Source: Betaproteobacteria bacterium CG2_30_68_42 (GTDB lineage Bacteria; Pseudomonadota; Gammaproteobacteria; Burkholderiales; Rhodocyclaceae). Taken from it: a stretch of DNA of 36,502 nt. Shown here piece after piece: positions 12,276 to 13,104 of the stretch. Numbering within the stretch: position 1 is the stretch's first letter; the number at the start of each line of letters is the position of its first letter. The notes below the pieces were generated by a model. It saw nothing but the letters and a program-made list of their open reading frames with translations, ran no database searches and was not told where the DNA came from. Where the stretch lies: assembly GCA_001872285.1 (NCBI GenBank), contig MNXU01000021.1, forward strand, positions 1-36,502, written 5' to 3'. The position numbers were made by a program, and so were the translations under genes.

Positions 12276-12305
12276 AAAAAAAAAGCGCAACCGGGAAGGT
12301 TGCGC
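12276..12305 (-). terminator. Intrinsic terminator of the candidate small RNA
   Basis: Perfect 8-bp stem GCGCAACC / GGTTGCGC (12285-12305) with loop TTCCC on the minus strand, followed at once by nine T residues (12276-12284). On the plus strand the T-run is missing after the stem (AAAATCC), so it terminates minus-strand transcription, not the phosphodiesterase gene. Confidence 0.85.
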
Positions 12306-12378
12306 AAAATCCACACCAAAGGAGGAGGGTGGAAGAACTTCGTCACGATCTCCGGAGGAGGCCAGAGCATCACGACGG
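12276..12378 (-). ncRNA. Candidate anti-Shine-Dalgarno small RNA (cuckoo/CcsR-like)
   Basis: A complete minus-strand unit in an otherwise empty gap. It would start about 7 nt after the -10 at 12384-12389 and end in the terminator T-run, about 100 nt. Hairpin 1 (12350-12367) is CTCTGG, loop CCTCCT, CCGGAG, with a 6-bp stem. Hairpin 2 (12310-12333) has stem TCCACC against GGTGTGGA (2-nt bulge) with loop CTCCTCCTTT. Hairpin 3 is the terminator. Loops of CCUCCU/CUCCUCC are complementary to the Shine-Dalgarno sequence, as in the alphaproteobacterial CcsR/alpha-r14 'cuckoo' RNAs, which carry CCUCCUCCC in two hairpins. Homology to those is not claimed; the resemblance is architectural. No convincing ORF lies on this strand. 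Confidence 0.65.
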
Positions 12379-12383
12379 TTGCG

Positions 12384-12412
12384 ATTGTGCGCGCCCGTTC
12401 GGAAAAAAGCAA
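12384..12412 (-). promoter_or_regulatory. Sigma70 promoter of the candidate small RNA
   Basis: On the minus strand TTGCTT (12407-12412) and CACAAT (12384-12389) are separated by exactly 17 bp. The region just upstream is AT-rich (AAAAAACGC, GTAATTTCATG), unlike the GC-rich surroundings, which fits a strong promoter with an UP-like element. Confidence 0.6.
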
Positions 12413-12684
12413 GCGTTTTTTGTGCGGTGCATGAAATTACTCAAAGCGCTTGATCCGAGAAAGGTTTTACAGATTAACCTGTTTGTGTCCAATCGGTTGC
12501 GCACGCCTGGGGGTTCCGCTGCATTTCTGATAATGCTCAGATCCTCTAGACTCGATCCAGGCGAATCCGGCCACGATTATTGCGTCGCACCATCGCCAGG
12601 ACTCGGCTGACGCACGGCCGCGGCCCGGCATTCGCTCCCGCTCGGATAGAATCCGCCGGCAGGTGTCCGGGCGGGAGGTGTCCG
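12413..12684. other. AT-rich intergenic region upstream of the small RNA and osmC-like gene
   Basis: No gene is seen. It contains a 14-bp near-palindrome ACAGATTAACCTGT at 12469-12482 (one mismatched pair), about 57 bp upstream of the small RNA -35, which could be a regulator site. The plus-strand ribosome binding site GGGAGG for the OsmC-like gene lies near 12672. No clear promoter for that gene was identified. Confidence 0.4.
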
Positions 12685-13104
12685 ATGAAGTGCACGACCC
12701 GATGGATCGACGGGATGAGCTTCGCCGCGGAGACCGCGAGCGGCCACCTCGTCGTCATGGACGGCGCGCCGGAGGGGGGCGGGCGCAACCTCGCGCCGCG
12801 CCCGATGGAGCTCATCCTGGCGGGGACGGGAGGCTGCACGGCCTATGACGTCGTGCTGATCCTCAAGCGCGGCCGGCACGCGATCACCGGATGCGAGGTC
12901 AGACTGGAGGCCGAACGCGCGCCGGCCGATCCCAAGGTCTTCACCCGCATCCGGCTGCACTACCGGATTCGCGGCAAGGCACTGAAGCCGGAAGCGGTCG
13001 CGCGCGCGGTGGAGCTGTCCGCCGAGAAATACTGCTCGGCGACGGCGATGCTGGCGAAGACCGCCGCGATCACGCACGACTGGGAGATCGTCGAAGAGTC
13101 CTAG
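12685..13104 (+). CDS. OsmC/YhfA-like peroxiredoxin family protein
   Basis: 139 aa, typical length. OsmC-family proteins reduce organic hydroperoxides with a two-cysteine centre. Both cysteines are visible: LAGTGGCTAYDVVLILK at about residue 56 and EKYCSATAML at about residue 118. The N-terminal KCTTRWIDGMSFAAETASGH and RPMELILAGTGGCT are close to the YhfA branch. The ATG at 12685 follows GGGAGG by 7 bp; upstream codons in the same frame lack a ribosome binding site. It is cytoplasmic and stands alone between the small RNA and convergent ssb. Confidence 0.9.
   Translation: MKCTTRWIDGMSFAAETASGHLVVMDGAPEGGGRNLAPRPMELILAGTGGCTAYDVVLILKRGRHAITGCEVRLEAERAPADPKVFTRIRLHYRIRGKALKPEAVARAVELSAEKYCSATAMLAKTAAITHDWEIVEES

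Follow-up and report, generated by a model that had tools for sequence, protein, structure and literature searches.

A predicted small RNA gene beside osmC in a betaproteobacterium: a positional ortholog of the RF02278/S17/ncS27 family with a PhaR-type promoter box

The minus strand of the window (the whole 36,502-nucleotide stretch that was analysed) very likely carries a small RNA gene. We propose, with a probability of roughly 0.64, that its product is a trans-acting small RNA (sRNA), a lineage-specific and osmC-linked form of the RF02278/S17/ncS27 family, which would serve as a PhaR-gated translational repressor coupled to carbon storage. The features on which this reading is built are the following.

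12276 to 12380, minus strand: predicted small RNA of about 100-105 nt, from the fold, the RF02278 match and synteny
12407 to 12412, minus strand: -35 hexamer TTGCTT; many orthologs have TTG(C) in the corresponding position
12384 to 12389, minus strand: -10 hexamer CACAAT; orthologs frequently have CATAAT or GATAAT
12341 to 12377, minus strand: 5' hairpin (hairpin 1), with loop CCUCCU at 12356-12361 and CCUCCUCC at 12354-12361
12331 to 12340, minus strand: linker AAGUUCUUCC, occupying the position of the family's single-stranded anti-Shine-Dalgarno site 1 (UGUCUCCUCC), which is absent here
12310 to 12333, minus strand: hairpin 2, whose loop UCCUCCUUU at 12326-12318 is the family's site 2; the core CCACCCTCCTCCTTTGGTGTGGATT is retained
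12276 to 12305, minus strand: intrinsic terminator, with an 8-pair stem (12305-12298/12292-12285) and nine T (12284-12276)
12420 to 12431, minus strand: TGCACCGCACAA, which agrees in full with the PhaR consensus TGCRNYGCASMA and lies 7 nt before the -35
12581 to 12592, plus strand: TGCGTCGCACCA, another box of the PhaR type, lying 104 nt before osmC
12685 to 13104, plus strand: OsmC-family gene (PF02566, 68.9 bits), the divergent conserved neighbour

The earlier note had described a minus-strand promoter, one hairpin with the loop CCUCCU and another with the loop UCCUCCUUU, an 8-bp terminator stem and nine T's, in what looked like a betaproteobacterial host. All of these were recovered, the host was rightly named, and the proposal of a small RNA gene with two anti-Shine-Dalgarno loops is very likely correct. 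With a predicted folding energy of -41.9 kcal/mol the RNA lies far below its 200 dinucleotide shuffles (-23.2, sd 3.4; z -5.5), and no shuffle folded as well. In the predicted fold hairpin 1 has 15 pairs and one bulged G, the stem given before having been too short, hairpin 2 has just 5 + 2 pairs with a bulged U, and the terminator loop is UUCCC; the linker between the two hairpins reads AAGUUCUU on the minus strand. One terminator was found by scanning, where the shuffle mean was 0.7. The hexamers TTGCTT and CACAAT, spaced by 17 nt, hold 7 of the 12 sigma-70 consensus bases, which is weak when judged alone, and a consensus scan called no promoter; we accept the promoter because it is conserved in orthologs. 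Protein-coding readings of the minus strand were set aside, as the open reading frames are antisense to the phosphodiesterase gene or span the hairpins.

At its gathering thresholds Rfam returned no match in the window, and to that extent the element is unannotated, as had been stated. A permissive covariance-model search put no family over its cut-off and brought up RF02278 as the best one, with 43.2 bits at 12277-12339 over all 64 model positions (E 1.6e-7 for a search space of the 451-base stretch); ncS54 reached 23.4 bits (cut-off 43), below RF02278 and alpha-r14. The gathering cut-off of RF02278 is 50 bits, and it is because the score lies under it that Rfam misses this kinship and that the element falls outside the family by that measure. 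Matches to RF02278 were found in 100 of 121 related genomes, with 70 above the cut-off, and in none of 14 control genomes, and the window copy is the single match in its own genome. TGTCTCCTCCACCCTCCTCCTTTGGTGTGGATT is unchanged in many relatives, the window retaining the portion from CCACCC onward, and a search of plasmid records with the 33-nt core returned nothing. The sRNA is expanded in some genomes: five family copies lie within 3.6 kb in G068 (L256), and nine matches were counted in G043.

For the comparison of loci 149 family copies from 95 genomes were examined, the window's own copy being counted unless stated otherwise. These copies were found by the RF02278 model or by the core, which biases the set in favour of site 1; copies below about 34 bits were left out, as were a few other weak ones such as those of G049, G022, G039:C10, G008:C18, G098:C6 and G089:C68, and also G076. 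L014 dropped out because it did not fit the pattern and L019 because it is the end of a contig, and same-place duplicates were counted once. Seven genomes (G398, G355, G257, G366, G185, G122 and G141) came from a CCTCC-pattern search and were excluded from the phaR tables. For 72 of the 149 the retrieved stretch includes an OsmC-family gene, at 109-951 nt from site 1, and without exception this gene and the sRNA are divergent, in the orientation seen in the window. Many of these osmC-linked orthologs have a promoter layout in common, made of a TGCNNNGCACAA element, TTGC at -35 and often CATAAT or GATAAT at -10. Since the position beside osmC and the promoter both agree, the element is taken to be an ortholog of the canonical RF02278 copy; this yardstick of locus and promoter is our own and was drawn from the relatives examined. 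The phosphodiesterase gene on the 3' side was considered as a part of the conserved unit and rejected, as 80 loci with a relative of it were scanned and all 10 short core matches proved incidental on inspection.

RF02278 (Betaproteobacteria_toxic_sRNA) holds the double-hairpin RNAs ncS03/05/27/62 of Burkholderia cenocepacia and S17 of Bordetella pertussis. The window has the same hairpin-2 core, CCACCCTCCTCCTTTGGTGTGGATT, followed by a terminator, and similar C/U-rich loops, and the divergent osmC locus and promoter layout of the relatives examined match its own. It differs from the family in that site 1, GUCUCCUCC, which should stand single-stranded (UCUCCUC) before hairpin 2, is missing, in that CCUCC stands in the loop of the 5' hairpin, and in its score. 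Judged by position and promoter, the element is thus an ortholog of the RF02278 family (ncS27, S17) that is derived in sequence, and it is no certified Rfam member of RF02278; the idea that it might be a new or orphan element gives way to this positional orthology.

As a structure the 5' hairpin is old, while its sequence is not conserved. For the 72 osmC-linked copies the 48-nt leader folds with a median z of -1.34 (42 below -1), against medians of 0.07 and 0.16 in control windows further upstream (8 and 8 below -1). When the window and five pattern-selected copies are removed, the remaining 66 leaders give -1.43 (44 below -1) against 0.06 (9) and 0.18 (7), with p of about 1e-10 or less. Leader sequences are highly variable among orthologs, and in an alignment of 14 chosen leaders of the 72 paired changes could be made out by eye (GGATCG/CGATCC, GAATCG/CGATTC, GGATCA/TGATCC). 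Under a strict pattern, CCTCC lies 14-44 nt before the core in 10 of 395 family genomes; site 1 is kept in nine of these ten, the window being the sole exception. CCTCC occurs in the 48-nt leader of 14 of the copies examined, and of these only the window has all five bases in a hairpin loop in both predicted folds; in G141 CUCC lies in a small loop, and in others the motif is partly paired or single-stranded. At first CCTCC seemed enriched in leaders, with 10 of 72 where shuffles gave 2.5 and none of 500 shuffles had as many; this enrichment was discarded, as that set included five CCTCC-selected copies and the window; in unselected leaders the count is 4 of 66 against 1.8 (sd 1.3), a value reached by 51 of 500 shuffles. 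As CCTCC in leaders is near chance, a function of loop 1 finds no support in the relatives. Conservation of both CCUCC loops had been named earlier as a point to check: it stood for loop 2, whose core is almost invariant among the relatives listed, and did not stand for the loop 1 motif. The window form, with an anti-Shine-Dalgarno motif at the tip of the 5' hairpin and none in the linker, was seen in one genome, and loop 1 may possibly serve as an anti-Shine-Dalgarno in place of the lost site 1.

It could also be that the element is the same family sRNA with hairpin 2 alone active, the 5' hairpin being a leader removed by RNase and its CCUCCUCC a passing accident, a reading that is compatible with control by PhaR, conflicts just with a use of loop 1, and to which we give a little short of even odds. 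In the accessible parts of the published studies, the 5' part of S17 is removed by processing of S17L to S17S (PMC11722255) and a processing site is reported for ncS27 (PMC5688073). The wide divergence of ortholog leaders and the near-chance occurrence of CCTCC in unselected ones point the same way, and the AAGUUCUU linker appears to resemble an RNase E site; if the 5' part is cut off here as in S17, loop 1 would do nothing. What speaks for a role of the 5' hairpin is that the entire CCUCC is exposed in a stable predicted hairpin loop, and that site 1 is lost, so that a cut RNA would retain just one anti-Shine-Dalgarno.

The proposal of a PhaR-gated RNA turns on the promoter box TGCACCGCACAA, which, from its agreement with the consensus, is likely a PhaR binding site. 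PhaR of Bradyrhizobium is a PHB-binding regulator, for which the accessible part of one study gives the consensus TGCRNYGCASMA and the footprints TGCGACGCACAA, TGCGTCGCACAA and TGCGCTGCACAA, which flank or cover the -35 (PMC6201568). The sRNA promoter in the window carries this consensus, and the genome contains phaR as well as phaC. TGCNNNGCACAAAA occurs once in the 3.1-Mb genome, at the window promoter; the PhaR consensus itself has 48 sites there against 19 for the reversed pattern and so is no rarity. Of the 149 family copies, 73 have the consensus in the 170 nt upstream of site 1, against 11 of 1634 control windows of equal size taken from these loci without restriction to intergenic DNA; when the window and seven pattern-picked copies are removed the count is 69 of 141. 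The strict box is absent upstream in 76 of the 149. Its position is regular as well. The nearest box lies 66-118 nt upstream of site 1 in 48 of the 50 osmC-linked copies that have one, and 31-36 nt before site 1 in 17 of the 23 non-osmC copies that have one; if the transcript starts without a leader, a box in this place would overlap its -35. The osmC genes have a PhaR-type box within 170 nt in 27 of 72 cases, partly the same boxes as those of the sRNA promoter.

Counted by genome, the box was present in 54 of 77 genomes with phaR and in 0 of 11 without it (Fisher 9e-6, for genomes with examined copies and uncorrected for kinship), the strict box being absent in 23 of the 77. Within the window's own family the figures are 44 of 62 phaR genomes against 0 of 1, a single phaR-less genome being testable, and elsewhere in the order they are 10 of 15 against 0 of 10 (p 0.001); box and phaR both track phylogeny. 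When 399 genomes of the order were searched with a site-1-plus-box pattern, 32 matched, against 1 match for the reversed-pattern control, and all 32 fall among the 266 genomes with phaR, in a comparison of lists that is likewise uncorrected for kinship and is confounded with the presence of the sRNA. Phasin genes are the classical targets of PhaR. The same box lies within 250 nt of 23 of 29 phasin genes (one of them from the window's genome) taken from the 30 top-scoring loci, one of which had no start, and of the genome's own two phasin genes one has the box. Among the 61 genomes in which phasins were searched, six family copies follow a phasin-domain match in the same orientation at a distance of 256-292 nt (G017:C70, G032:C14, G008:C21, G008:C18, G022:C2 and G029:C11), which suggests that these phasin-adjacent copies are 3'-UTR-derived and may also be made from the 3' ends of phasin mRNAs. 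Locus labels are carried by G017:C70 (L155), G032:C14 (L185), G008:C21 (L184) and G029:C11 (L177).

The TGCNNNGCA box might instead be read by another dyad regulator, for example of the NtrC or LysR type, in which case the sRNA would answer to nitrogen or redox. In the accessible part of one study LsrB and NtrC control NfeR1 of Sinorhizobium meliloti through TGC...GCA dyads that are spaced differently (PMC10746234), but the three-base spacing and the CACAA tail seen here are those of the footprinted PhaR sites in the available text (PMC6201568), the same box stands at phasin genes, and the box is absent in the examined phaR-less genomes. We consider another regulator unlikely.

Under control by PhaR, the sRNA would be transcribed from a sigma-70 promoter with the PhaR-type box just upstream of the -35. 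With no polyhydroxybutyrate stored, PhaR would repress the sRNA; once granules form, PhaR would be drawn onto them, and the sRNA and the phasins would be made. By base-pairing of its C/U-rich loops (the second, and possibly the first) to Shine-Dalgarno sequences, the sRNA would prevent the translation of mRNAs, the targets being probably uptake and catabolic genes, by which stored carbon would feed back on intake. The 3' end of 16S rRNA is CACCUCCUUU, which loop 2 resembles. We infer the PhaR wiring of the window sRNA because PhaR of S. meliloti, in the accessible part of a published study, binds the mmgR promoter and represses the CU-rich sRNA MmgR, and TGCACCGCAGCA lies inside the published 21-mer of that promoter (PMC12542648). 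As for pairing, the available text on S17 of Bordetella describes an Hfq-dependent, RNase E-cut RNA which represses a target in a translational reporter, this target having sites complementary to single-stranded regions of S17, and many of its candidate targets are transporters with RBS complementarity (PMC11722255); in the same accessible text the Bordetella authors postulate repression of the S17 promoter in one mode. Growth is attenuated on overexpression of ncS27, and ncS03, ncS05 and ncS27 are up in biofilm, starvation and glucose medium, according to the available part of the Burkholderia study, whose authors called the regulation of sRNA accumulation yet unknown and described an upstream motif common to three RNAs (PMC5688073). 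In the accessible part of a review, NcS27 is described as regulating the shutdown of metabolism (PMC10987360).

Of the 149 copies, 141 have an intact site 1 (UCUCCUC, ahead of hairpin 2), as do 70 of the 72 that are osmC-linked, in a set whose manner of collection favours site 1; the window and G027 are the only osmC-linked copies among the 72 to lack it. The copy in G027 (L020) has a strong 5' hairpin with no CCUCC in it, and that genome has 0 GGAGGAGAC-ATG sites. GGAGGAGAC is the complement of the lost site 1. Co-evolution, by which the loss of site 1 would be followed by fewer GGAGGAGAC sites before start codons, was looked for and did not show in the window's genome, which has 10 such sites (reversed control 0), within the range of its relatives. 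As these sites persist, no retuning of targets is visible. That the element is a degenerate family copy, its lost site 1 a sign of decay, would fit its score of 43.2 bits against 50, its standing as the sole RF02278 match in the genome, and an altered site 1 in a form with no second genome, but we hold it improbable, as the promoter, the PhaR-type box, the hairpin-2 core, the terminator and the 15-pair 5' stem are all present.

Membership of the alphaproteobacterial alpha-r14/CcsR class, by descent or by transfer, has very little in its favour beyond three hairpins, CCUCC loops and an alpha-r14 E of 0.0022 in the 451-base search, against 27.8 bits for a cut-off of 58.8 (RF02344), a betaproteobacterial locus, core and promoter, and a terminator loop, UUCCC, without the CCUCCUCCC motif. 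In the accessible description of the alpha-r14 class, CCUCCUCCC is unpaired in each of three hairpins (PMC10746234), whereas the loops in the window are CCUCCU (CC partly in the stem), UCCUCCUUU and UUCCC. The kinship with these 'cuckoo' RNAs suggested in the earlier note is thus not borne out, the locus being the conserved betaproteobacterial one of RF02278. CcsR is found as repeated copies behind a small DUF1127-type protein gene. Here there is one sRNA copy, and its annotated neighbours are the OsmC and phosphodiesterase genes. The alpha-r14, NfeR1 and CcsR RNAs, like the window, have several hairpins with anti-Shine-Dalgarno loops; the window differs from them in not having CCUCCUCCC in each of the three loops, in a score far under the cut-off and in its other locus and regulator site. 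On this analysis, what would stand is a resemblance in action.

Two further families bear comparison with the window. The NmsR sibling RNAs of Neisseria (RF02877) share with it a 5' hairpin, a C/U linker, a hairpin with a C/U loop and a terminator; membership was rejected at just 22.0 bits for NmsRb against a cut-off of 52, and NmsR responds to RelA in the accessible part of its study (PMC5362039). MmgR (suhB, alpha-r8, RF00519) of S. meliloti is likewise short and C/U-rich, and its promoter contains a PhaR site, as is predicted for the window. It has another fold and in the available text is reported to act on phasins, and the window scores 16.5 bits against its model (cut-off 41), which led to the rejection of this family. 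A copy in G103 (L162, 1470-1561) matches both NmsRb, with 64.6 bits and over the cut-off, and RF02278, with 44.5 bits, and because it does so the RF02278 and NmsR families appear to grade into each other. At L127 and L153 sub-threshold matches to anti-hemB (both) and SorY (L153) coincide with the place of RF02278, which hints at a wider overlap of sRNA families.

The window presents a form of the RNA without the usual single-stranded anti-Shine-Dalgarno, and the PhaR link is a larger lead than this sequence variant. In the accessible literature on the RF02278/S17/ncS27 RNAs, the S17 preprint included, no PhaR link was found; such a link between PhaR and an sRNA is already known in an alphaproteobacterium, from MmgR of S. 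meliloti, and would be new for the betaproteobacterial RF02278 family as far as the available sources go. The control of the abundant betaproteobacterial RNAs of the RF02278 type is an open question in the accessible published work, and the PhaR box, if functional, would suggest what switches the family on. Tentatively, and at a little less than an even chance, the whole RF02278/S17/ncS27 family, with NmsR as its PhaR-less form, may be the output arm of a carbon-storage sensor, in which granules draw PhaR away from promoters, and the RNAs, whether transcribed from promoters of their own or derived from the 3' ends of phasin genes, mask the Shine-Dalgarno sites of uptake genes. The anti-Shine-Dalgarno motif would then be movable between a single strand and a hairpin loop, and RF02278, NmsR, MmgR and alpha-r14 may be variants of one storage- and starvation-coupled type.
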